DNA from: Pseudovibrio axinellae
Lineage (GTDB): Bacteria; Pseudomonadota; Alphaproteobacteria; Rhizobiales; Stappiaceae
Assembly (NCBI RefSeq): GCF_900110875.1
Contig: NZ_FOFM01000001.1
Coordinates: 1 to 64,000, forward strand
Direction: 5' to 3'
Length of the DNA: 64,000 bases
Below are positions 1-13,071 of the stretch, piece after piece. The position numbers were made by a program, and so were the translations under genes. Within the stretch, counting starts at the first letter, position 1; each line of letters begins with the position of its first letter. Under the pieces are notes generated by a model. It saw nothing but the letters and a program-made list of their open reading frames with translations, made no database searches and had not been told where the DNA came from.

Positions 1-529
1 ACAGAGGCTTCAACGGTGTAAGGCCCTCCTGCTGAGGCATTGGCGCTCACGCTCAAGGAAGCTTCACCTGCACTGTTGGTGGTTGCTGTTTGTGAAACCG
101 AACTCAGTCCAGCCCCGCTGGACGGCGCTGTAAAGGTCACAGGTTCCCCAGCAACCGGATTGCCGCCTGCATCTTCAACCGTGACAACAAGCGGGTTGGA
201 AAAGCTGGAGGAGATTGTCGTGTTCTGGTTGTCTCCGGAAGTAACCGACAGGGATGCAGCTGCACCTGCATCGTTGGTCAGCGAGAAGTCTGCTGTTGAG
301 CCAACGCCAACAACAGAGGCTTCAACGGTGTAAGGCCCTCCTGCTGAGGCATTGGCGCTCACGCTCAAGGAAGCTTCACCTGCACTGTTGGTGGTTGCTG
401 TTTGTGAAACCGAACTCAGTCCAGCCCCGCTGGACGGCGCTGTAAAGGTCACAGGTTCCCCAGCAACCGGATTGCCGCCTGCATCTTCAACCGTGACAAC
501 AAGCGGGTTGGAAAAGCTGGAGGAGATTG
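1..529. repeat. Tandem 312-bp repeat with a 217-bp identical block
   Basis: Bases 1-217 recur without a visible difference at 313-529, a period of 312 bp or 104 codons, inside the Ig-like repeat gene. Outside this block the units differ at many positions (from 218 versus 530). Since synonymous sites are also identical, recent duplication or gene conversion is likely; more units probably lie to the left. Confidence 0.9.
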
Positions 530-1076
530 GCGCGCTCTGGTTATTGCCGGAAGTGACAGAGATGGATGCAGGAACAGCCGAATTGACCGGCACGAAAGGA
601 GGGACAGTTAAGACTCCAGTGCTTGGGATATTAAGAGTAATTGAAAATGTACCACTAACTCCAAATTCACCGCTGACATTTATAGTGCAACCAGCTGCAG
701 AACATGTTCTATCTTCGCTTATTTTTCCCGATCCGTCAGGGGCATAAGGCGTCCCATCAATAGTAAGACTTGAGACGCCGTCGCCAGAGCTGGGGTTGTT
801 TCGGAAGGTTTCGATAGTGATGGTATTAATGTCAAATAGATTATAGATCGCAATTTGAGAGTTGTTTCCGTTACCATCTGCCACGCACGTTTCATTGGTC
901 AAATCAATATTAAGTGACGCTGTATAGCTTGGGGCAAAACTTGGGCAGCTGATAGTTCCTGCGATTGCGTTATCTTGCAAGGCAACGAAGTACGACATCG
1001 CCACAACTAAAAAAGTAGAAAGCAATCTAATCATTCTACCATAGGTTTTATGATTAGATTGCTTTAGCGTAGACAT
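1..1076 (-). CDS. Secreted Ig-like (Big-1 type) repeat protein, 5' part
   Basis: The N-terminal 358 residues of a gene that continues past the left edge. The ATG at 1076 is preceded by a good ribosome site (AAAGGAAA, 6-7 bases upstream). An alternative ATG at 1034 would begin directly with a signal peptide (MIRLLSTFLVVAMSYFVAL, then a likely cleavage after NAIAG). Residues about 40-175 are a unique beta-rich domain with several cysteines. From about residue 176 onward there are 104-residue repeats of the type SVTSGDNQ...NPLVVTVEDAGGNPVAGEPVTFTAP...TNSAGEASLSVSANASAGGPYTVEAS...TADFSLTNDAGAAA, characteristic of bacterial Ig-like domain 1 (invasin/intimin-like) repeats. One full repeat and most of a second lie in the window. 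The protein is probably an exported or surface structural protein or adhesin; export route and ligand are not visible. It is divergent from the tail-collar cassette, so a link with it is possible but unproven. Confidence 0.8.
   Translation of the reverse strand, partial: MSTLKQSNHKTYGRMIRLLSTFLVVAMSYFVALQDNAIAGTISCPSFAPSYTASLNIDLTNETCVADGNGNNSQIAIYNLFDINTITIETFRNNPSSGDGVSSLTIDGTPYAPDGSGKISEDRTCSAAGCTINVSGEFGVSGTFSITLNIPSTGVLTVPPFVPVNSAVPASISVTSGNNQSAPISSSFSNPLVVTVEDAGGNPVAGEPVTFTAPSSGAGLSSVSQTATTNSAGEASLSVSANASAGGPYTVEASVVGVGSTADFSLTNDAGAAASLSVTSGDNQNTTISSSFSNPLVVTVEDAGGNPVAGEPVTFTAPSSGAGLSSVSQTATTNSAGEASLSVSANASAGGPYTVEAS
1019..1065 (-). other. Perfect 16-bp hairpin over the start of the Ig-like gene
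   Basis: On the minus strand AAAGCAATCTAATCAT (1065-1050) is followed after 15 bases by its exact complement ATGATTAGATTGCTTT (1034-1019). The hairpin lies in codons 4-20 counted from the ATG at 1076. The first three bases of its 3' arm are the alternative ATG at 1034, immediately before the signal-peptide coding sequence. Such an arrangement could block an internal start or slow early translation. The structure is seen directly; a regulatory role is inference. Confidence 0.7.
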
Positions 1077-1640: not shown

Positions 1641-2159
1641 ATGTCCGAACCATTTCTTGCTGAGGTACGAATAATGGGGTTCAATTTTGCCCCAAGAGGT
1701 TGGGCCTTCTGTGACGGGCAAATTTTGCCAATCAACCAAAATCAATCCCTTTATTCATTATTAGGGACAACCTATGGTGGCGACGGTGTAACATCGTTTG
1801 CATTGCCGGATTTTCGTGGTCGAACACCAATCCATGTAGGTGCTTCCAACGGCATATTTCACTCGCAAGGGCAAAAGTCTGGCCAGGAAACTCACACGCT
1901 TTCCTCCGCTGAAATGCCACAGCACCGTCACTCGTTTTACGCCAGCACAGAGCCCGGGGCTACTATTACACCGCAAGGAAATTACTTGGCGAAAGCTCCA
2001 GCAGGATTAGATACATACACAGAGCCGGAAAACCTGAAAGCCATGCATGCATCGAGTGTTTCCGCCTCCGGCGGAGGCCAGGCTCATGAGAATATGCAGC
2101 CGTATCTTGCATTAACCTACTGCATCGCACTGCAAGGTCTATTTCCTTCTCGCAACTAG
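1641..2159 (+). CDS. Phage tail collar (MdpB-like) protein, copy 1
   Basis: A 172-residue protein of the tail-collar family (the collar fold of T4 short tail fibre gp12; often annotated microcystin-dependent protein MdpB). Family hallmarks seen are the N-terminal SEPFLAEVRIMGFNFAPRGW, CDGQ at 24-27, LLGTTYGGDG at 40-49, LPDFRGR at 55-61, an H-x-H pair at H95/H97 and the end MQPYLALTYCIALQGLFPSR. No signal peptide is visible. It is first of three tandem paralogues and the most divergent, separated from the next by 11 bases, so cotranscription is very likely. Related proteins occur outside phages with unknown function. Here no capsid, sheath, baseplate or lysis gene is near, so a prophage tail fibre is unlikely. 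Confidence 0.88.
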   Translation: MSEPFLAEVRIMGFNFAPRGWAFCDGQILPINQNQSLYSLLGTTYGGDGVTSFALPDFRGRTPIHVGASNGIFHSQGQKSGQETHTLSSAEMPQHRHSFYASTEPGATITPQGNYLAKAPAGLDTYTEPENLKAMHASSVSASGGGQAHENMQPYLALTYCIALQGLFPSRN

Positions 2160-2170
2160 GAGCCTTTGAT

Positions 2171-2686
2171 ATGTCAGAACCTTTTGTTGGTGAGATCCGC
2201 ATGTTCGCTGGTAGTTTCGCTCCCCGAAGCTGGGCGTTTTGCGATGGGCAGTTGATGGCTATCAGCCAAAATGATGCGCTGTTCTCATTACTGGGCACCA
2301 TATACGGCGGAGACGGCCGAACAACTTTTGCTCTGCCGGACTTGAGAGGACGCATTCCTATCCATCAAGGATCGGGACCTGGTTTGAGTTCACGGAGTCT
2401 TGGCGCGCGAGGTGGTTCGGAGAAAGTAACTCTTACAGTAAACCAGATCCCGAGCCATACGCACACTTTTACTGCAAGCGACAACTTAGCATCGGATGCA
2501 GCGCCGGGAGGTAAAGTCCTGGCCAGACAAGCGGATGATTTTTACAATCCTGATACCGCGACTGCAAGTATGGGTGCTAACTCCATTTCGAGTACCGGCA
2601 ACTCCGGTTCGCACGATAATCTGATGCCTTACCTATGCATCAACTTCATCATTGCTCTTTTCGGCATATATCCCAGCAGACAGTAG
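2171..2686 (+). CDS. Phage tail collar (MdpB-like) protein, copy 2
   Basis: A 171-residue paralogue of the genes on either side. It shares SEPFVGEIRMFAGSFAPRSW, CDGQLMAISQN, LLGTIYGGDGRTTFALPDLR, IPIHQGSGPG, an H-x-H pair at H96/H98 in IPSHTHTF and the end MPYLCINFIIALFGIYPSRQ. AGGAG overlapping the end of copy 1 serves as ribosome site for the ATG at 2171. The conserved ends and the variable centre (about residues 100-145) suggest a constant framework with a variable surface, as in trimeric fibre tips; this is inference from the family fold. Confidence 0.88.
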   Translation: MSEPFVGEIRMFAGSFAPRSWAFCDGQLMAISQNDALFSLLGTIYGGDGRTTFALPDLRGRIPIHQGSGPGLSSRSLGARGGSEKVTLTVNQIPSHTHTFTASDNLASDAAPGGKVLARQADDFYNPDTATASMGANSISSTGNSGSHDNLMPYLCINFIIALFGIYPSRQ

Positions 2687-2695
2687 GAGACAGAT

Positions 2696-3214
2696 GTGTC
2701 AGAGCCATTTATTGCAGAAATCAGAATATTTGCAGGTAATTTCGCGCCGCGCAGCTGGGCATTTTGTAACGGTCAGTTGCTCCCTATCGCGCAAAATACT
2801 GCGCTTTTTTCGCTGATAGGAACAACCTATGGCGGTGATGGTAGAACAACAACAGCATTGCCAAACCTTCAAGGGCGAGCACCAATGCATCCTGGCAGGG
2901 GGCCAGGCTTAACATCGCGCAGGCTTGGTCAGTTTGCAGGAGCCGAAACCACAGCTCTGAGTGAAACACAACTGCCTAAGCATCTCCATAGTGCGATGAG
3001 TACTCCGGATCTTGCAGATTCCGCAGAGCCTAGCAATAAGGTTGTCGCCATTACACCAGGTGAGTTCAGATTTTCATCCAAACTCACTTCGGAGGACCTC
3101 TCGTCTGAGGCACTTCAGACAGCCGGTGGAAGCCAAAGTCACAATAACATGCAGCCCTTCATAGCAATCAACTACATCATTGCCCTTCAGGGACTATACC
3201 CTTCACGTAGCTAG
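2696..3214 (+). CDS. Phage tail collar (MdpB-like) protein, copy 3
   Basis: A 172-residue third paralogue that starts at GTG 2696; GGAGA lies a few bases upstream and the start aligns with those of the other two copies. It has SEPFIAEIRIFAGNFAPRSW, CNGQLLPIAQN, LIGTTYGGDGRTTTALPN, an H-x-H pair at H96/H98 (LPKHLHS) and the end MQPFIAINYIIALQGLYPSR. The aspartate of CDGQ is replaced by asparagine. Nine bases separate it from copy 2. H-x-H motifs coordinate metal in T4 fibre tips; whether they do here is not known. Confidence 0.88.
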   Translation: MSEPFIAEIRIFAGNFAPRSWAFCNGQLLPIAQNTALFSLIGTTYGGDGRTTTALPNLQGRAPMHPGRGPGLTSRRLGQFAGAETTALSETQLPKHLHSAMSTPDLADSAEPSNKVVAITPGEFRFSSKLTSEDLSSEALQTAGGSQSHNNMQPFIAINYIIALQGLYPSRS

Positions 3215-3262
3215 GATTTTGTATTGCCTGTTTAATTTATGTCCAACTAAAGGACTTTTCTC

Positions 3263-4483
3263 ATGTCGATCGAAGAAATTATTCCCGAATTCTTTTCACC
3301 TCCTGAAGAGCAGCCCTCTGCGTATTTTAGAATATTTATCGCAGCGATAAATCGTGATGGGAACCTCGCTTACACTGAGCAAATGGCTCAAGATGGCAAA
3401 TTCTCAAAAGAGTTTAAACCTCTGACAAATTTAGCCTATGACCATGAGACCCTGAGTGCCTTTACAACCGCCAATGGCGATGTCGCCCTGTTGGCGAAAC
3501 AGGCAGACAAGGACAGCCTTGTCTATGTGAGCGAGAAGCGAAATGGCACCAGCACGGACCGTTTCTTTGCGCCCTACGATTTAGGTATGCCACCTGATGC
3601 AACAGCTTTGCGATACACCGAGGTAATTCATGGCCTGAATGGCAAGGTTAATATTTTTGCTGGAAATACTTCCGATGACGGGCAACTTTGGTGGAAATAC
3701 CAAAACCCTAACGTAATTAAAGAAGAAATTCAGTACGTTACCCCTCCAGGGTCAAATGAACCAATTGAAGTTCATGCGCAGGTAGAGGCCCAGCCGGACG
3801 TGCCTTGGTCAGCTTGGCACCCAATTTCAGCCTACATGGAAATGTTAAGTTCGGCCAACAATGCAGATGGGCGAATTATTTTGGCCGGTCTGGATAGTGA
3901 AGGCATTCCCTACCTAAACTTCCAAAGCAGTCAGGATCCTTTCGCAGAGGAAAGTTGGTTGGGGTGGCAGGACATCTCAGGAGGCAATCTAAGCTTGAGT
4001 GACATCAAGATTGCCAATGATACTGACGGCCGTGTTTACCTCTTTGGAGTTGCGGGCAAATCCGTTTATTTAAAACACCAGATGCAGCTCGGTCAGGACC
4101 AATTCACTCCATGGATGCATTTCTCACGGTTTGATAAATCCGTTTCTCAACTCCTACTGGGTATGACAGCTGACGGTGGAATTTACTTCTTGGCAAAAAC
4201 GGGTGATCAAAAGCGCAGTTTGCTTTATGGGTGTCATCAAATCCCGGGTGAACTTAATCTTTGGACCCAACCGGCAGTGATTGAAACGTGCGGTGGCGAT
4301 AGTATTCTTGCAATGCATCCCAACGCTAACTCAAAACTAAGCCTGTTTGCCTTTAGCCCGAGAGACCAGCAGCTGAGTTACAGCACACAGGCTTCCCCTG
4401 GTTTTTGGGAGGTTTTCTCATCTATTGGTGGCCCTGTTACCAATTTTGCAGTGACAGCCGACATAACGCCCAACAGTGAATAG
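3263..4483 (+). CDS. Unknown W-repeat protein, probable beta-propeller
   Basis: A 406-residue protein not assignable to a named family by eye. It contains degenerate repeats of about 50 residues marked by an aromatic motif followed later by DGR/DGG-x-x-x-LF: W182-x-x-W185, W232-x-x-W235, W284, W334 and W382, with weaker units earlier (near 50 and 104). DGR or similar lies at 202-204, 255-257 and 304-306. This periodicity resembles PLL/tectonin-like lectin propellers, so a sugar- or surface-binding propeller is plausible. No signal peptide or membrane segment is seen. It begins 48 bases after collar copy 3, with AAGGA before the ATG, and ends 9 bases before the GNAT gene, so all five genes probably form one operon. 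Confidence 0.6.
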   Translation: MSIEEIIPEFFSPPEEQPSAYFRIFIAAINRDGNLAYTEQMAQDGKFSKEFKPLTNLAYDHETLSAFTTANGDVALLAKQADKDSLVYVSEKRNGTSTDRFFAPYDLGMPPDATALRYTEVIHGLNGKVNIFAGNTSDDGQLWWKYQNPNVIKEEIQYVTPPGSNEPIEVHAQVEAQPDVPWSAWHPISAYMEMLSSANNADGRIILAGLDSEGIPYLNFQSSQDPFAEESWLGWQDISGGNLSLSDIKIANDTDGRVYLFGVAGKSVYLKHQMQLGQDQFTPWMHFSRFDKSVSQLLLGMTADGGIYFLAKTGDQKRSLLYGCHQIPGELNLWTQPAVIETCGGDSILAMHPNANSKLSLFAFSPRDQQLSYSTQASPGFWEVFSSIGGPVTNFAVTADITPNSE

Positions 4484-4492
4484 ATCTAAGAA

Positions 4493-4993
4493 ATGACTGT
4501 GTCTCCTTCCTCAAATCTGGCGTGGTCTCGTCATGTGAAATTCCGTGACATAACGTCGGCGGATATGGGTTTCCTTCAAGCTCTCTACGGTTCAACGCGT
4601 GCAATAGAGCTTGATCGCACCGGATGGTCGAAGGCGCAAAAAGATGCATTCATCCAAATGCAATTTAATGCGCAACACTCGCACTACCAATTGCATTACC
4701 CAGATGCGCTGTGGCTGATAATTGAACAGAAAGATGTGCCCATTGGGCGCCTCTATCTGGAATATTGGGAGAGCCAACACCGAATAATTGATATTGCGCT
4801 CCTGCCTGAAATGCGTGGCAAGGGTTTGGGGACTGAAATCCTCTTGGGTGTTATGAAGAAGGCTGCTCATGACGGAAAAGCAGTCAGCATTCATGTAGAA
4901 AAAGATAACCTGGCGATGGAGCTCTACAAGCGCCTTGGTTTTAAAAGGATTGAAGACAAAGGCGTCTACGACCTATTGGAATGGAGAGAATAA
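4493..4993 (+). CDS. GNAT family N-acetyltransferase of the collar cassette
   Basis: A 166-residue single-domain GNAT protein. The acetyl-CoA binding motif A is seen as IDIALLPEMRGKGLGTEIL (about residues 100-118), with the usual (R/Q)-G-x-G-x loop RGKGLG. Motif B follows (VEKDNLAMELYKRLGFKR, about 138-155). It acetylates an unknown amine from acetyl-CoA in the cytoplasm. The start is 9 bases after the propeller gene, which implies cotranscription. Position suggests a substrate made by the same cassette, perhaps an N-terminus or lysine of a collar or propeller protein, but this is inference; an unrelated small-molecule acetyltransferase cannot be excluded. Confidence 0.85.
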   Translation: MTVSPSSNLAWSRHVKFRDITSADMGFLQALYGSTRAIELDRTGWSKAQKDAFIQMQFNAQHSHYQLHYPDALWLIIEQKDVPIGRLYLEYWESQHRIIDIALLPEMRGKGLGTEILLGVMKKAAHDGKAVSIHVEKDNLAMELYKRLGFKRIEDKGVYDLLEWRE

Positions 4994-5056
4994 GACCAAG
5001 ATCACGTCTCAGCTCAGGCCCTATAATGGCACTGAGCACGTTACTAGCTAGTCTTT

Positions 5057-5350
5057 TTAGGTGAAAACAGCTTCATATTTAAAACCATCGGTATTGTGCG
5101 CGATTGGAACAATAAAGAGCTCCATCGATCCAAGGGTTTCTTGCGTCAGCTGATAACTGCCCTGCTCCAGAGATGGCTGTAGCGGGCCTTGCCAAACCAT
5201 CGAAAACGCCCCGCCTTTTCGTTCGCCAGAACGCAGCGGAACAACCTCAACTAACTTGAGAATAACGTTCTGGTCTTCCAATTTCAGTTGGAACTCTTCG
5301 CTTTCCAGGTTCTCAAAACTTTTTGCGGTAATATCTTTAAGATCAATCAT
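5057..5350 (-). CDS. Small DUF6916-like protein
   Basis: A 97-residue protein, MIDLKDITAKSFENLESEEF at the start, with a beta-rich pattern and the segment FSMVWQGP...GSYQLTQETLGSMELFIVPI. This resembles the small DUF6916 family found beside tail-collar genes in other bacteria; the assignment is from memory of the pattern and is tentative. No signal peptide or membrane segment. It is convergent with the GNAT gene (63 bases between the stops), so it is not in the same transcript but probably belongs to the same functional cassette. Confidence 0.55.
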   Translation of the reverse strand: MIDLKDITAKSFENLESEEFQLKLEDQNVILKLVEVVPLRSGERKGGAFSMVWQGPLQPSLEQGSYQLTQETLGSMELFIVPIAHNTDGFKYEAVFT

Positions 5351-5814: not shown

Positions 5815-7041
5815 ATGCGTCTGCTGTGGTGCCGTTTCTTGTTTAAGCTCCTTGTAATTATGCCAAGTATTGCCACGAGTGCATTCCATCAAGCCTGTTT
5901 GATGGTCATGGTTCCGTTATTGCAAGAAGTCTTTCATCTTTCTTTGAGCGAGATTGGAATGGTTGTTGGGATGGGCCTGATGGCAACAGCGATCAGTGTG
6001 CCTGCCTGGGGCCATCTTGCGGCATCTATTGGAAGTGTCTACGCCATAAGAGTTATTTTGTGTTTTGCACTGCTTAGCGTGTCAGCGATTGCACTCAGCT
6101 TTGTGCTGGTCAATTCCTCTTTGTTACTGCCTCATTATGGGGTGGTCATGCTTGTTGTTGCACGGCTTGTTTACAGCGTAATGGCTCCAGCCCTGCTTCC
6201 AATTGCTCAAGCTATCATTGTACAAAACACGCAGGAACCTGCGCAAGTACTGCCATCCATAGGCCGTTTAAACTCGATGTCGGGGCTTGGACGACTTGCA
6301 GGAAACGCGATGGTAGCTCCGCTCTTGTTTGTTAGTAAGTCGGCACCGCTCATTGCGCCAATTCCTATCTATGCGATCTGTACTTTTTTCGCCTTCCGGC
6401 ATTCCTCACCTGCGATTGCTAAGGTGAAAGAGGGCTGTAAATCTGACAAGCAGACGACCTTTGCAAAACGCCCGCTTCTGGTCGCATTTTCCCTACAGAT
6501 GTGCCTTAGCATTACATATGTTCTTCTCGGGCCTCTCCTTAAAGAACGATTGCAGCTGGACGCCCTTCAGGCGACAGGCCTGGCAAGTTACTGTCTGACT
6601 GCTGCTGTTTTAGGTGGTTTGTTTGCTCAGATGGGACTTCTCCCGGTCTTGCGTGCCAGCAAGAGCGCTATACAAATCGCCAGTGCAATCGGCGTTGCCG
6701 CAGGTCTTAGTCTACTTTGCATCGCACCTACGCTGTCCACCATTGTTGCAAGCGTGACGGTGATCGGGGCTTCAGCAGCCCTGCTTTCAGCGACTAATTC
6801 GGTATATATGTTCAATATGTTGCCAGCTGCCTCAAAAACAAAAGCTTCAACCTATCTTTCTAGCATTCAGTTTACCGGCTTGGCCACAGGCTCTCTTCTT
6901 GGAGGGTTTGGTGGAGAGTGGGGACTGACTCATACTTTAACAATCGCCGCGCTACTTGCAATTGTTCTTTGCGTAGGCGGTTCCAGGTTCGTGATCAGCC
7001 AAAAGCCAGTTACGCCTCCTCTGCGTCCCTCTGATATTTGA
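5815..7041 (+). CDS. MFS transporter, probable siderophore exporter
   Basis: A 408-residue inner-membrane major facilitator with about 12 hydrophobic segments and the break between halves near residues 200-220 (charged loop KVKEGCKSDKQTTFAKR). As the first gene behind the iron-responsive promoter, with the hydroxylase gene 21 bases downstream, it most likely exports the newly made aerobactin-type siderophore, like the MFS exporters of other NIS clusters (for example AlcS of the alcaligin locus). The ribosome site for the ATG at 5815 is weak; an internal ATG at 5860 is possible. Specificity cannot be read from the sequence. Confidence 0.8.
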   Translation: MRLLWCRFLFKLLVIMPSIATSAFHQACLMVMVPLLQEVFHLSLSEIGMVVGMGLMATAISVPAWGHLAASIGSVYAIRVILCFALLSVSAIALSFVLVNSSLLLPHYGVVMLVVARLVYSVMAPALLPIAQAIIVQNTQEPAQVLPSIGRLNSMSGLGRLAGNAMVAPLLFVSKSAPLIAPIPIYAICTFFAFRHSSPAIAKVKEGCKSDKQTTFAKRPLLVAFSLQMCLSITYVLLGPLLKERLQLDALQATGLASYCLTAAVLGGLFAQMGLLPVLRASKSAIQIASAIGVAAGLSLLCIAPTLSTIVASVTVIGASAALLSATNSVYMFNMLPAASKTKASTYLSSIQFTGLATGSLLGGFGGEWGLTHTLTIAALLAIVLCVGGSRFVISQKPVTPPLRPSDI

Positions 7042-7062
7042 CTGAACACAAGGAACCTTTAT

Positions 7063-8409
7063 ATGCCCCAGATAGTCAAGATGCCGGAACGAAATCAACA
7101 CTCCAGCGCCTATGACCTGCTTGGTTTAGGGATCGGGCCATTCAACTTGAGTGTGGCTGCGCTTGCCCAAAGCATTCCGCAAATGCGCACGGCATTTTTC
7201 GATCAGAAACAAGAGTTTAAATGGCATCACGGGCTAATGTTCTCTGGCTCTATTTTGCAAACTTCGTTTTTGAAAGACTTAGTTACGCCCGTTGAACCAA
7301 CCAGCCCGTATTCCTTCCTGGCCTTTCTGGTTGAGAAGAAGCGCTTTTATGATTTCCTAGCGGGCGGGTTTACCGGGGTCACCCGCGTTGAATTCAACGA
7401 GTATCTGGCATGGGCAGCAGGTAAAATGAGCAACTTGCAATGGGGTCGTTCTGCGCAAGATGCCACCCTAAAAGATGATGCCCTGACCGTTACCTTTGAC
7501 GATGGCCGTGTGGTATCTTCGAAAAACCTGGTGATTGGCACCGGTATGACGCCGTTTCTGCCTCATTGGTCGCAACCGCACCTGGGTGAAAATTGTTTTC
7601 ATGCAAGCAATTACCTTTCCCAAGACCGCTGCTTTGATAACAAATGTGTTACGGTGATTGGCGGCGGTCAAACTGGTGCGGAGATTGTGCTTGATCTTCT
7701 TACAAACCAGCAGCGAAAGCCGAAGGAGGTCCTTTGGATCAGCAATCTTCCGCGGTTTTCGCCATTGGAAGAAGGCGGTTTTGTTGACCAGGTGTTTACA
7801 CCGGGATACGTCAGTAGCTACCAGAGCTTGCCTGAGCGCAGCCAACTGCAAGAGGTTGCAAGCCAGAAACTTGCCAGCGATGGCCTGACGCCGAGCACGG
7901 TGGATGAGCTTTATGCTGAGGTCTACCGTCGCAAACACCTAAGCAACAACGAATGTAACATCACTTTGCTTTCTGGCCGCAATGTAATCGCCATGGAGCG
8001 TAACGGGCCAAGCTATCAGCTCACGTCACAGTCCGCGATCAGCGAACAGGTCGAGCAACAACAAACGGACATCGTTGTGCTAGCAACAGGTGCAAGACCT
8101 GCCCTTCCCGACTTTATGGAGCCACTCCTTCCACGTCTTAGTATGGATGAAAATGGCCTGCCAGAATTGGACAGCTCGTACAAGCTGGCATGGGATGGCC
8201 CGAAGAACCTGCAGATTTTTGGTCTGAACTTGGGCCTCTCCTCTCACGGCATTGTTGATCCTCAAATGAGCCTAATGGCCTGGCGCGCCGCGACCATTCT
8301 CAACCGTGTTGTGGGATCAGAGTTGTTTGATCTGGATGAAGACGAACAGATGATTAAGTGGCCAAGCGTGCCGCAGGAAAGTGTTTTGGCACAGGTTATG
8401 CCTGCCTGA
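7063..8409 (+). CDS. iucD: L-lysine N6-monooxygenase (aerobactin type)
   Basis: A 448-residue flavin-dependent N-hydroxylating monooxygenase that hydroxylates the side-chain amine of lysine, the first step of aerobactin synthesis. The FAD motif GLGIGPFNLS is at 21-30, the NADPH motif VIGGGQTGAE near 198-207, then ATGARP near 343-348. The C-terminal block NLGLSSHGIVDPQMSLMAWR is typical of IucD/AlcA proteins. AAGGAA precedes the ATG. Ornithine or a diamine is an alternative substrate, but two NIS synthetases with no decarboxylase in the operon favour lysine and an aerobactin-like product. Confidence 0.88.
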   Translation: MPQIVKMPERNQHSSAYDLLGLGIGPFNLSVAALAQSIPQMRTAFFDQKQEFKWHHGLMFSGSILQTSFLKDLVTPVEPTSPYSFLAFLVEKKRFYDFLAGGFTGVTRVEFNEYLAWAAGKMSNLQWGRSAQDATLKDDALTVTFDDGRVVSSKNLVIGTGMTPFLPHWSQPHLGENCFHASNYLSQDRCFDNKCVTVIGGGQTGAEIVLDLLTNQQRKPKEVLWISNLPRFSPLEEGGFVDQVFTPGYVSSYQSLPERSQLQEVASQKLASDGLTPSTVDELYAEVYRRKHLSNNECNITLLSGRNVIAMERNGPSYQLTSQSAISEQVEQQQTDIVVLATGARPALPDFMEPLLPRLSMDENGLPELDSSYKLAWDGPKNLQIFGLNLGLSSHGIVDPQMSLMAWRAATILNRVVGSELFDLDEDEQMIKWPSVPQESVLAQVMPA

Positions 8410-8450
8410 CCTAACAGTACGCTCCATTCAATCAAGGCTTCAAAACCGTC

Positions 8451-10271
8451 ATGAATAAAACCTTTCATTTGAGTCAGGCGCACGCTGATCGTGCGTCTGT
8501 TCTACCTACACCTGTGCAGCAGGCAGAACACGCTACAACCAATGCATTCCTCAATGCATTACTGCGGGAATGGTCAGACTGGTGGTTTCTTACAAGCGAG
8601 CAAAAAAAGCTGCATTCGTTTGATGAAGAAACAGCTTGTCTGCCCTTGGCAGACAACACCTGTTTACTGGTGAGAATTCCAAGTCACACGGCAGCGCGCT
8701 TTGAGGTGCAACTGCCGTTATACCACTGGAGCGGCACAGGCGATCCAAAGCCGATCAGCCCGATTAATGCGCTCACCCTATTGGCGACGGACAAGCAAGT
8801 CAGCCCCGGCGAGGATCAAAGACAGCTCACCTTGTTGTCTCGCATTCTAGATAGCCATCAGGGCCAGATACGCGCTTATGAGTTTGAGGCGAAACAAGAG
8901 CCTTCCCTTGCTAAGGCGTGGAATTTTCAGCAAGCTGAACAAGCACTTGTCTCCGGTCACCCGACCCACCCAAATCCACGCAGCAGAGATGAGCTTAGCA
9001 CAGGGGAAGCAGCCTTTTATGCGCCAGAGCTTCAAGGTCGTTTCCCATTGTTCTGGGTTCTGGCGCACCGTTCAATTCTGGCGTCAGGCTCCGGCGTTTC
9101 CATGAAAGCGTTTGACATGTGCCGCGTCCTTGCCAAGAGCGATGAAACATTGCCTGAATCTTTGTGCACGGCGCAGGACGACGCTTATGTTCCAGTGCCT
9201 TGGCATCCATGGCAGGCGAAACGCTTGCTGGCCAAACCGCAGGTGATTGAATGGCTTCAACAAGGTCTGTTTAAATCTCTTGGCTGCATTGGCCTGCCAT
9301 TTGCTGCAACTGCATCCATGCGCGGCGTACACGCATTTCATGCGCCATACATGCTGAAATACTCGCTCTCCATGCGGATCACCAACTCCAAGCGCGTTTT
9401 GGCCCGCAAAGAAGTTGAGCGCGGCGTTCAAATGGCAGAGTTACTTTCTGGTGACTTTGGAACCCAGCTTGGCGAGGAGTTTCCAGCAGTTACTATCCTC
9501 ACTGAACCAGGGTACGTCGCCCTTCGCGCGCCAGATGGCGGTGCAATGGAAGACAGTTTTGTAATCCTGCGCGACAATCTTTTCCGCAAGGAAGAGCAAG
9601 GTGGCGCAATCATGCTCGCCAGCTTATGCGAGCCACGCCTTGCTGCACCTTCGCCTCTGGGTGAGTTGATTTGCAACCGGGCTGTTCAGACAGCCCAACC
9701 GCCAGAGACCGTTGCAAAAGACTGGCTGACATCCTTTATGCAAGTGGCGATCATGCCACTATTGGAAATTCGCGCCAAACACGGCCTTCTGTTTGGCTCA
9801 CACCAGCAAAATATGATGGTGGGTTTGAGTGATGGCATACCCTCTCACCTTTATATCAGAGACTGTCAGGGTACAGGTCATCTGACGACCCATCATGATA
9901 ATTTGGCATCTTTTTTGCCGGAGATTGGCGAGAATGCAGAAAACGTTGTGCCTCCAGAGCTAGGCGACGAACTGCTTTGCTACTACGTGATCGTCAATAA
10001 CCTGCTGCACACCGTGAGTACTTTGGTGTTCGACGGTTTGATAGATGAGCGCTACGCGTACGACTTGATCCGCAAACAGCTAAAACATGCCTTTAAGACA
10101 ACTTCTGGCGATCCAGCGTTCTATGAGTATTTGCTGACATCCCCACAGCTGGTGAGCAAAGGCAATTACCGCACGAGTTTGAGCGGCGTGAATGAAGCCT
10201 CCGGCGACGGATCAGGCCAGCTGGCAGCCTTCCTTAAAATAGACAACCCATTTCTCGAGCCGAAGACCTAA
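8451..10271 (+). CDS. iucA: IucA-like NIS siderophore synthetase
   Basis: A 606-residue member of the IucA/IucC (NRPS-independent siderophore) synthetase family, which joins N6-acetyl-N6-hydroxylysine to citrate using ATP. Family landmarks are GHPTHPNPRSR (about 164-174), VPVPWHPWQ (about 245-253), ATASMRGVHAFHAPYMLKYS (about 286-305, nucleotide-binding region), the catalytic-site block GSHQQNMMV (about 449-457) and YIRDCQGTG (about 466-474). It is separated by 41 bases from iucD and by 2 bases from the acetyltransferase gene. The IucA versus IucC assignment rests on sequence style and presence of the second synthetase downstream. Confidence 0.85.
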   Translation: MNKTFHLSQAHADRASVLPTPVQQAEHATTNAFLNALLREWSDWWFLTSEQKKLHSFDEETACLPLADNTCLLVRIPSHTAARFEVQLPLYHWSGTGDPKPISPINALTLLATDKQVSPGEDQRQLTLLSRILDSHQGQIRAYEFEAKQEPSLAKAWNFQQAEQALVSGHPTHPNPRSRDELSTGEAAFYAPELQGRFPLFWVLAHRSILASGSGVSMKAFDMCRVLAKSDETLPESLCTAQDDAYVPVPWHPWQAKRLLAKPQVIEWLQQGLFKSLGCIGLPFAATASMRGVHAFHAPYMLKYSLSMRITNSKRVLARKEVERGVQMAELLSGDFGTQLGEEFPAVTILTEPGYVALRAPDGGAMEDSFVILRDNLFRKEEQGGAIMLASLCEPRLAAPSPLGELICNRAVQTAQPPETVAKDWLTSFMQVAIMPLLEIRAKHGLLFGSHQQNMMVGLSDGIPSHLYIRDCQGTGHLTTHHDNLASFLPEIGENAENVVPPELGDELLCYYVIVNNLLHTVSTLVFDGLIDERYAYDLIRKQLKHAFKTTSGDPAFYEYLLTSPQLVSKGNYRTSLSGVNEASGDGSGQLAAFLKIDNPFLEPKT

Positions 10272-10273
10272 CA

Positions 10274-11296
10274 ATGACACTTGATCAAACACTTAGTAGA
10301 TCCACACTTGCTGGTACACAAGCACCGCTTTGCACAGGCTCATGGAGCGACGGGGAGCTGACCATTCTTCGGGGCAACGAAGCCTTTGCCTATGCCTGTC
10401 TGGATAATGCAAGGCACGCCCGCTTACAGCTTTCTTTTAATGCTGAGGCGTCATCTGACGATGCAACGCGCGCAATTCTTCTTGGTTTAGAGGCCTGTTT
10501 TGCAGCCCATGAAGAGATACAGGAGATCAACCTAACGCTGCCTGAAGGGTTTGTGAGCCCGCGCGACCTGCCATTCCTTGCTGTATCCAACAATGAACAT
10601 TGGGCACACCGCTCTGGCTTCTATCAAAACCCAGATCTCTGGATCTTTCATAAAACATCTGGCCGTCTTCGTACCGGACTGGTTGAAGGCCCCAATGGCA
10701 GAGATTTTCCACTACGCCCGCCTCACCCGTCCGGTCTTTGCTATGAACGTTATGACCCGGTTGCGGACGTCGTTGTTTCGTTCCGTGCGGTCGACATTGA
10801 CCGTGATCTGGACACCTTCCATCGCTGGATGAATGATGGCCGCGTAGCGTATTTCTGGGAGTTGGCGCAGTCGAAAGACGAGCTCAGAGCCTACCTTGAA
10901 GTGCTGCAATCAAAACCCCACACCTACCCCCTCATTGGTTGCTTTAACGGAGAAGATGCTGGTTATTTTGAAACCTATTGGGCACGGGAAGATCGGCTTG
11001 GAGCTTATTATGCGTCGCAAGCATATGACCGCGGATGGCACGGGCTGATTGGAGAACGCAAACATCTGGGCAAGGTAAAAACAGGTGCTTGGCTACGTGG
11101 GTTGACGCACTACCTGTTTTTGGACTGCCCGCTGAGCGAAAACATCATGGGGGAGCCGCGGGTAGACAACGCCAAACTGCTCTCCTACGCAGATTCGCTT
11201 GCCTACGAAAAGCTCAAGGAGTTTGACTTCCCGCACAAACGCTCCGCGTTGATGTGCTGTCGCCGCGACAGTTTCTTCTCCAAGGTGCGCCTATGA
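10274..11296 (+). CDS. iucB: N6-hydroxylysine O-acetyltransferase (IucB-like)
   Basis: A 340-residue siderophore-type GNAT acetyltransferase. It acetylates N6-hydroxylysine to give the hydroxamate arm of the siderophore. The catalytic domain is C-terminal (about 170-335) and shows the family signs VDIDRDLDTFHRWMNDGRV, YFETYWAREDRL, DRGWHGLIGE and GEPRVDNAKLL. The N-terminal 150 residues form the non-catalytic domain usual in this family. The ATG lies 2 bases after the IucA stop, and the stop overlaps the start of the next gene (ATGA), so translation is coupled. Confidence 0.88.
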   Translation: MTLDQTLSRSTLAGTQAPLCTGSWSDGELTILRGNEAFAYACLDNARHARLQLSFNAEASSDDATRAILLGLEACFAAHEEIQEINLTLPEGFVSPRDLPFLAVSNNEHWAHRSGFYQNPDLWIFHKTSGRLRTGLVEGPNGRDFPLRPPHPSGLCYERYDPVADVVVSFRAVDIDRDLDTFHRWMNDGRVAYFWELAQSKDELRAYLEVLQSKPHTYPLIGCFNGEDAGYFETYWAREDRLGAYYASQAYDRGWHGLIGERKHLGKVKTGAWLRGLTHYLFLDCPLSENIMGEPRVDNAKLLSYADSLAYEKLKEFDFPHKRSALMCCRRDSFFSKVRL

Positions 11297-13071
11297 GTAT
11301 GCAGCAGCAAAACACAACCACAAAGGCAACGCAGGTGTCACAGTTGTGGGCGCAGGTCTGCCATGCTGCCTTGGCAAAGTTGCTTAGCGAATTAACATAT
11401 GAAGAGGTTCTGGCGCCGGTTTTGACTGGTGCTGAACGCTTTGAGTTGCAGCTCGCTTGCGGTGTGTATTACACGTTTCAGGCACAAACCATGGCCTGGG
11501 GCAACCTTTGGGTAGAACCTGAAAGCATCGCACGACATGGCGACACAGACATGCCTGTGTCGCCACTTCAATTTGCAATCGATGCGCAAACAGAGCTTGC
11601 CATGAAACCAGAGACACTCGCGACTTTCTTGCGTGAGATGTCCAACACGCTGCGTCAGGATTTGCATCTGGCACGAACAAATGGTGGTCTGGATGCAGAA
11701 CAGCTTCTTCAGCTGAAAAGCCACGAGCTTCATACATTGCTGGAAGGGCACCCAAAAGCTGTGGCAAACAAAGGTCGCCTTGGCTGGGGTGCTGAGGACA
11801 CGGCCCGCTTTGCACCAGAGGCGCGCCAGCCTTTAACGCTGATTTGGCTCGCCGCCCTGCGTGAGAATTGCGAGCTCAGCCATCGTGAAGTCAATGAGGA
11901 ACGTCGTTTCCTGAAAGAGGCTTTGGGGAAGGCTGAAAGCGAGCGTTTGTTTGCAGCGTTTGCAGAAAAAGGCGTCGATTTTGAAAACTACTGTGTGATC
12001 CCTGTGCACCCGTGGCAGTGGGATCATGTGATACAGCAGACCCATGTCCATGATCTGCATACAGGCAAGTTGATTGAGCTAGGCACCTTTGGTGGTCGTT
12101 ATGTTTCCGGTCCGTCCTTGCGCACCCTCACCAGTGTGGACCGGCCCGGCAGCCCAGATGTCAAAGTTGCTTTGATGATCCTGAATACCTCTGCATGGCG
12201 TGGTATTCCCGGTAAGTACATTACCAACGGGTCTGCCCTGTCAAATTGGCTGCATGGTATTGTGCAGGAAGACGATCAGTTGAAAGATACTGTGCTCATT
12301 CTGCGCGAACAGCGAGGTGTTTGGTATCGCCACCCCTTTTACGATCAACTCTCCAACATCCCATACCAGCATAATGAATCTTTGGGTGCAATCTGGCGGG
12401 AAAACGCAAGTGGCCGGGTTGGAGCGAATAAAGTGGCCCATCTTTATGCCGCCTTGCTACACATGGACAATGCAGGAGTACCCTTAGCAGCCCGGCATGC
12501 TCAAAAAACTGGAATGGCCCTTAGCGAATGGATCCGGCGCCTGTTCGAAGTCACCGTCGTCCCACTCTATCACATGCTCTGCGTCTATGGTGTTGGCTTC
12601 ATTGCGCATGGACAAAACATAACAGTGGTGTTGGAAAACCACATACCCACCGGCATGGCGATCAAAGACCTGCAAGGCGACGTCGATCTCGTCAACCAAG
12701 TTTATCCTGAACAGTGTGATCTTAGTGATGACTTGCGCGCGCTACTGCCTGCAAAACCTGCAGCCTACATCGTGCACGACATCCAAACCGCACACTTCAT
12801 CACAGTCCTGAGGTTCTTATCTTCTGCGCTTCAAAACGCAGAACAAATGCACGAAAGCGACTTCTATCAGATACTTGGAGCCACGTTGAAGGACTATATG
12901 GCGCAGCATCCACAGTATGAAGCGCGGTTCAAAACCTTTGAGCTATTTGCCCCAACTATCCCTCGTGTCTGCATCAACAAAGTTCGCTTTCAAATTGGCT
13001 ACGGCGACAACGCAGAGCGCCCATTACCAGCCCTGGGCACCGATTTAAAAAATCCACTCGTGGGTGGGTGA
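11293..13071 (+). CDS. iucC: IucC-like NIS siderophore synthetase (aerobactin synthase)
   Basis: A 592-residue second IucA/IucC-family synthetase, which would couple the second hydroxamate arm to complete the siderophore. Landmarks are LEGHPKAVANKGRLGW (about 152-167), IPVHPWQWDHV (about 237-247), the block SLRTLTSVDRPG followed by ALMILNTSAWRGIPGKYI (about 276-312), AHGQNITVVLENH (about 440-452) and IKDLQGDV (about 458-465). The chosen ATG at 11293 overlaps the IucB stop as ATGA. A longer reading from 11254 lies wholly within iucB and lacks a ribosome site. No TonB-dependent receptor or ferric reductase gene follows. Confidence 0.87.
   Translation: MSMQQQNTTTKATQVSQLWAQVCHAALAKLLSELTYEEVLAPVLTGAERFELQLACGVYYTFQAQTMAWGNLWVEPESIARHGDTDMPVSPLQFAIDAQTELAMKPETLATFLREMSNTLRQDLHLARTNGGLDAEQLLQLKSHELHTLLEGHPKAVANKGRLGWGAEDTARFAPEARQPLTLIWLAALRENCELSHREVNEERRFLKEALGKAESERLFAAFAEKGVDFENYCVIPVHPWQWDHVIQQTHVHDLHTGKLIELGTFGGRYVSGPSLRTLTSVDRPGSPDVKVALMILNTSAWRGIPGKYITNGSALSNWLHGIVQEDDQLKDTVLILREQRGVWYRHPFYDQLSNIPYQHNESLGAIWRENASGRVGANKVAHLYAALLHMDNAGVPLAARHAQKTGMALSEWIRRLFEVTVVPLYHMLCVYGVGFIAHGQNITVVLENHIPTGMAIKDLQGDVDLVNQVYPEQCDLSDDLRALLPAKPAAYIVHDIQTAHFITVLRFLSSALQNAEQMHESDFYQILGATLKDYMAQHPQYEARFKTFELFAPTIPRVCINKVRFQIGYGDNAERPLPALGTDLKNPLVGG

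Follow-up and report, generated by a model that had tools for sequence, protein, structure and literature searches.

The tip of the phage T4 short tail fibre, gp12, is trimeric and metal-bound, and contractile injection systems and tailocins have fibres of the collar type at the tip. Large Ig/cadherin-type adhesins and autotransporters are a further point of comparison, and we know of none that needs a triplet of collar proteins together with a GNAT acetyltransferase and a DUF6916 protein. Genes for this combination lie near the left end of the stretch of Pseudovibrio axinellae DNA analysed here, which comprises bases 1-64000 (hereafter the window) of a 1.07-Mb contig in a genome of 5.13 Mb. 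Judged by their recurrence across genomes, the three collar paralogues, the GNAT subfamily and DUF6916 travel together as a bacterial cassette. The reading to which we lean by a little is that this non-phage cassette makes a surface device, a knob of collar proteins that serves a giant adhesin and would be folded in the cytoplasm and exported in the folded state. An earlier interpretation of the same DNA (the original prediction) had suggested a self-contained surface or fibre-tip device, an idea that gains support from the comparisons reported below.

A cassette recurring across bacterial phyla

The genes concerned are the following:

1641..2159, plus strand: COL1 collar protein, 172 residues, leaderless (by eye), N-terminus MSEPF, HxH motif (Pfam)
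2171..2686, plus strand: COL2 collar protein, 171 residues, leaderless (by eye), HxH at residues 96-98 (Pfam)
2696..3214, plus strand: COL3 collar protein, 172 residues, leaderless (by eye), GTG start, HxH motif (Pfam)
3263..4483, plus strand: PLL-type beta-propeller lectin, 406 residues (profile, AlphaFold2 model, Foldseek)
4493..4993, plus strand: GNAT acetyltransferase, 166 residues, of a subfamily seen beside collars (Pfam)
5057..5350, minus strand: DUF6916 protein in its leaderless form, 97 residues, convergent (Pfam)
3..1076, minus strand: 5' end of an Ig-like (Big_1) protein gene, signal-peptide-like N-terminus by eye, divergent from the cassette and truncated at the contig start

The coordinates given in the original prediction and the gaps of 11, 9, 48 and 9 bases between the five plus-strand genes all agree with the listing of open reading frames, and Pfam matched what had been called three collar-fold proteins, an acetyltransferase and a convergent DUF6916-like gene. 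The cassette and the divergent Big_1 gene are 564 bases apart. Scans of the locus for promoters and terminators gave results no better than chance.

Among 101 genomes (the organism's own and those of relatives), collars were found in 37, DUF6916 in 26 and the lectin in 15, and all 29 DUF6916 places adjoin collars by eye. Gene calls give the recurrent order COL-COL-COL-(lectin)-GNAT, with DUF6916 often convergent. In a sample of 398 genomes drawn evenly from the phylum, DUF6916 is present in 44 genomes (52 places) and collars in 100; 43 of these 44 also carry collars, and a collar match lies within 5 kb of at least 49 of the 52 places (by eye). The exceptions are G149, where the collar is 46 kb distant, G281:C210, which is not among the collar matches listed, and G169, which has no collar match in the genome and a locus consisting of DUF6916 and GNAT. 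Loci L130 and L131 have DUF6916 without nearby collars; in L131, from a genome lacking any collar match, it is accompanied by a GNAT of the cassette type.

A scan of named genomes with the collar alignment was based on the best 80 matches to COL2, and its counts describe the near relatives of this protein. The 79 best-matching loci, many of them in metagenome-assembled genomes, contain at least three collars in 74 cases, GNAT in 72, DUF6916 in 66 and the lectin in 8 within the fetched stretch. They span about ten phyla, with members in the Acidobacteria, Chloroflexi, Bacteroidota, Planctomycetota, Actinomycetes, Cyanobacteria, Gemmatimonadetes, Myxococcales, Verrucomicrobia, Hydrogenedentes and several proteobacterial classes, and over this range gene order and content, checked for random variation of the neighbours, turned out to be conserved. 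For example, the megaplasmid of Ruegeria sp. TM1040 repeats the window's layout, including a divergent giant gene of the choice-of-anchor D type. Profiles identify collars, lectin, GNAT and DUF6916 in this locus, whose annotation reads three 'tail fiber proteins', 'hypothetical', 'GNAT' and 'hypothetical'.

Some relatives depart from this layout. Locus L061 (G030:C1:122001-142000) is degraded, with fragmented collar and lectin frames. In L378, on plasmid pDFI2 of Deinococcus ficus, the lectin is replaced by a 386-residue gene product annotated as an ABC transporter substrate-binding protein and without a match to the lectin profile, and a gene for about 900 residues is located 36 bp upstream of the collars.

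Properties of the cassette proteins

PF07484 (Collar) matches COL1, COL2 and COL3 with E-values of 8e-28, 2e-29 and 1e-27 (96-102 bits against a cut-off of 24), and a search of the whole 5.13-Mb genome for this family returned three places, all of them in this cassette. The three window proteins start directly at the collar, with MSEPF, and carry the HxH motif downstream. H96 and H98 are invariant across 16 aligned collars; HxH is present in 372 of 378 collars in a wider set and in 151 of 152 in the tree set, and the motif of the window collar is aligned in the alignment with PDB 8kec. In a tree of 132 collars from 44 triplet loci (out of 60 loci with collars, many of them from Stappiaceae), the nearest relative occupies the same cassette position for 120 of the 132 proteins, and for none does it come from its own locus. 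By this tree, the three collars are an old triplication that has been kept as three distinct paralogues.

In two genomes the three collar units are one polypeptide (L142:6070-7569 and L143:6567-8759). According to profile coordinates, both chains show an identical circular permutation, in which a unit's C-terminal piece forms the N-terminal end and the last unit lacks that piece; in L143 the short C-terminal collar pieces score weakly. The permutation resembles what would result from opening a ring at a different point. The existence of single-chain triple collars is indirect support for a heterotrimer or ring, and the three collar chains probably form one ring. One of the two chains ends in a PEP-CTERM tail and begins, by eye, with what looks like a signal peptide; RTX repeats are found on the other. 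Two more fusions, COL-COL-GNAT (L141:5194-6873) and GNAT-DUF6916 (L345:3398-4240), tie the remaining cassette members together at the level of gene structure. As for other arrangements, two collar triplets stand next to each other within one locus in L182 and in L194, and L150 has the one-strand order collar-DUF6916-collar-DUF6916-GNAT.

The 406-residue product of the fourth gene matched nothing in Pfam above the cut-off. Its alignment profile matches the Photorhabdus PLL/PHL lectins (best E-value 1.6e-40, to PLL2), and its AlphaFold2 model, with a predicted local distance difference test score (pLDDT) of 88, has PLL5 as best fold match (Foldseek E-value 4e-16). What had been predicted as a probable propeller is, on profile and model, a PLL-type beta-propeller lectin with putative sugar binding.

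The GNAT protein belongs to Acetyltransf_1 (E-value 2e-12, Pfam) and to a subfamily with clear motifs common to 120 members. Used as a query it matches 65 of the 101 genomes; the 28 best places (E-values up to 5.6e-9) all adjoin collars by eye, and the matches beyond them are partial, weaker (1.8e-7 and above) and located elsewhere in the genomes. The residues Ser, Ala, Gly, Thr, Asp and Glu after the initial Met are the usual sites of N-terminal acetylation. In GNAT-bearing loci, the residue after Met is Ser, Ala, Gly or Thr in 287 of 319 collars and Asp or Glu in 29, with collar starts chosen by pattern. These counts are consistent with a GNAT that might acetylate collar N-termini.

The 97-residue protein matches DUF6916 with an E-value of 1.3e-25 (Pfam). 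Its model (pLDDT 91) consists of a short helix and six strands, and a sequence search of the PDB yielded no match.

Giant neighbours, export signals and the proposed device

The giant of the window is the Big_1 gene, and the contig begins within a 312-bp tandem repeat of this gene. When the C-terminal region of a Roseibium giant was used as a query against the window's genome, only the window's own repeat matched, and the remainder of the giant was not found. From 99 non-redundant cassette loci, 68 with at least 4 kb on both sides were available for a test for giant neighbours; the window is not among them. A frame of at least 1000 residues lies within 300 bp of the cassette in 36 of the 68 loci and within 2 kb in 49, compared with 23 and 34 of 140 generously counted control pseudo-cassettes, which were drawn from 20 regions, are not independent and have giant frames defined from stop to stop. 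Thirteen giants that were scanned, the window's included, have Ig-like, cadherin-like, DUF11 or autotransporter domains. A C-terminal region common across phyla links 39 giants (single linkage), and 18 further giants are linked via their N-termini, many of which start with LEPR..FDGA. The giant of L163 carries a PF03797 autotransporter barrel, and Dyadobacter giants have C-termini resembling those of the type IX secretion system (by eye). Some of the 92 giants listed at greater distance are clearly non-adhesins. The link between the cassette and the neighbouring Ig-like protein, raised as a possibility in the original prediction, gains support, because about half of the testable loci have an adhesin-like giant frame no more than 300 bp away, well above the control rate, and because the complete counterpart in TM1040 has the same divergent giant.

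Export signals are found on two kinds of cassette protein. Sec-type signal peptides on collars were detected by script and eye in 15 of 192 loci scanned; 19 loci were positive by script, and inspection by eye then removed L078, L123, L331 and L344, which were spurious upstream frames or internal phage segments. None of the 15 loci has GNAT or DUF6916 in the available stretch, which is 1.1 kb on the right of L074, 2.4 kb on the left of L211 and otherwise at least 3.9 kb on each side. On a tree from which collars shorter than 120 residues (hence L075), L078, L331, L344 and near-duplicate Stappiaceae loci were omitted, the 14 placed loci form six groups (6 changes, compared with a shuffled mean of 22). 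In L211, two of the three collars read SEPF or SDPF from the apparent cleavage site onward, like leaderless collars once Met has been removed. At least one partner, GNAT or DUF6916, is present in 49 of 66 leaderless loci and in none of 11 signal-peptide or fused-secreted loci (Fisher 3e-6, uncorrected for kinship; the 80 loci of this count are from the 398-genome sample except for L347, with several per genome possible).

DUF6916 is the second kind. The twin-arginine translocation (Tat) pathway exports folded complexes that bear a signal on one partner, and such carriage would account for leaderless partners. Of 114 loci, 26 have a DUF6916 copy with a Tat-type signal, which in 21 cases is a second copy (30 calls by script, five of which were dropped and L228 added by eye). 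The organisms include a cyanobacterium, planctomycetes, a Pyrinomonadaceae bacterium and Nocardioides, and further examples come from Marinicella and Lysobacter sp. CAU 1642. The same script was positive for 3 of 125 GNAT frames, spurious by eye, and for 8 of 388 collar frames, which by eye have Sec-type signals or are spurious. The window contains no DUF6916 copy with a Tat signal. In L122:8802-9254, the signal of a Tat-type DUF6916 has a lipobox-like LMAGC at its end, which would fit a lipid anchor.

We infer how the device would act, that is, its trimer, metal, acetylation, escort, export, attachment to the giant and adhesion, from these features taken together. The three collars would assemble 1:1:1 into a ring-like knob that the HxH metal site holds together, similar to the tips of T4 short tail fibres, and the knob would fold in the cytoplasm. 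GNAT would acetylate it, most simply at the free Ser/Ala N-termini, and DUF6916 would escort the folded knob out of the cytoplasm, by Tat where it bears a Tat signal. Outside the cell the knob would cap or anchor on the giant adhesin and bind ligands; in the window's version the lectin would contribute glycan binding. A more far-reaching proposal is a widespread surface organelle with a metal-folded heterotrimeric knob, acetylation by its own GNAT, escort by DUF6916 (with Tat hitchhiking in several phyla) and capping of giants, in which some lineages would have signal-peptide collars and the ring of two genomes would be a secreted single chain; we put this forward tentatively, as a possible but doubtful extension. 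If the device is real, many genes annotated as 'tail fiber protein' or 'hypothetical protein' would be parts of a single conserved surface system that brings along its own modifying enzyme and a partner for export, and DUF6916 would gain a testable role. The predictions are a 1:1:1 trimer, bound metal, acetylated N-termini and dependence on Tat.

Several observations weigh against an exported knob for a giant adhesin. The collars and DUF6916 of the window carry no export signal, so that an extracellular location is argued from relatives. No giant lies within 300 bp in 32 of the 68 loci, giants vary in type, and one of the 36 close giants (L120) is a spurious arginine-rich frame, the other 35 being adhesin-like in composition. 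A strict acetyl-CoA-loop pattern occurs in 91 of 124 GNATs, and a fold search of the PDB and BFVD with the DUF6916 model found no match at E < 0.001. The signal-peptide loci hold one collar in 7 cases, two in 5 and three in 3; with so few triplets, the absence of partners may go with the non-triplet state. Partners are also missing from 17 of the 66 leaderless loci, 10 of which have single collars. This confound slightly lowers our confidence both in the best explanation and in the folded-export organelle.

The leaderless collar heterotrimer, GNAT and DUF6916 might instead constitute a cytosolic metal- or ligand-binding complex, with the giant merely a frequent neighbour. Such a complex would fit the lack of signal peptides (by eye) on the window's collars, lectin, GNAT and DUF6916, the loci without a close giant and the fact that most signal-peptide relatives are non-triplets. 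We nevertheless regard it as unlikely, given homologous collars with Sec signals, PEP-CTERM or RTX tails, the Tat-type copies of DUF6916 and the frequency of giant neighbours above control. Another explanation retains the surface device and lets the collars leave by lysis, in vesicles or along the giant's secretion route, with GNAT and DUF6916 as regulators or chaperones unrelated to export. Giants do appear to use several routes, as the autotransporter barrel and the Dyadobacter C-termini indicate, and most DUF6916 copies are leaderless; however, a collar signal peptide and GNAT or DUF6916 never occur together in the loci seen, and some DUF6916 copies bear Tat-type signals, which makes this explanation rather improbable in our view.

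Relation to phage tails, lectins and adhesins

PHROG tail families match the window collars (best E-value 1.7e-30) and GNAT matches phage acetyltransferases (6.7e-10), with no PHROG match for DUF6916 or the lectin at an E-value of 0.001. DUF6916 likewise had no match in 50,697 phage records. COL2 matches 309 of these records, with less than 40% identity in the 20 matches listed, whereas its bacterial relatives across phyla reach 72% (51-72% among the best matches listed). Of 80 viral-contig loci kept, 20 have at least three collar matches, 2 have GNAT and 1 has DUF6916. No capsid, tail, lysis or integrase genes are found among the five genes to the right of the cassette (to 13071), and the annotated TM1040 counterpart stretch contains no phage genes. 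The right-hand genes, at 5815-13071, form a siderophore-type cluster of an MFS (major facilitator superfamily) transporter, a lysine/ornithine monooxygenase, two IucA/IucC synthetases with FhuF domains and an Acetyltransf_8 protein.

A phage-tail remnant, or a captured set of tail-fibre genes without function as a unit, is very improbable: phage fibres typically have the collar fold, the PDB matches are tail fibres and the window's left side is the contig edge, but DUF6916 is absent from the 50,697 phage records and from PHROGs, the listed phage matches are less similar to COL2 than bacterial ones, collar positions are conserved and neither the five genes to the right nor the annotated TM1040 stretch includes phage genes. 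PADLOC-DB defence models matched none of the six cassette proteins. On the evidence of neighbours, PHROG, phage records, the TM1040 counterpart and PADLOC-DB, we reject the readings as a prophage, an injection system or a defence system, the first two of which the original prediction had already set aside.

In the open-licence literature searched, we found no description of the collar triplet, its partners or its function, which leaves absence in print unproven, and the term 'DUF6916' did not occur. Public records give cassette-type collars the same name as stand-alone 'tail fiber protein' genes, and we take this name and COG4675 'microcystin-dependent protein' to denote the same genes. The latter is among the soil metaproteome functions listed in PMC5579227.

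Compared with T4 gp12 short tail fibres and long-tail-fibre tips (PF07484; PDB 1ocy, 8kec), the cassette proteins have the same collar fold by sequence. They are, however, three separate short paralogues from the collar onward, without a shaft and with no phage genes seen, to which the cassette adds GNAT, DUF6916 and often a giant adhesin. In contrast to contractile injection systems and tailocins, tube, sheath and baseplate genes are missing from the right-hand neighbours and from three annotated counterpart stretches. The lectin shares profile and fold with the Photorhabdus PLL/PHL lectins, but its gene belongs here to an operon in which it stands between those of the collars and GNAT, and the cassette giants that were scanned are of the same kind as large Ig/cadherin-type adhesins and autotransporters. 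The folds of the collar, lectin, GNAT and adhesin are already known, and any novelty lies with the system as a whole.

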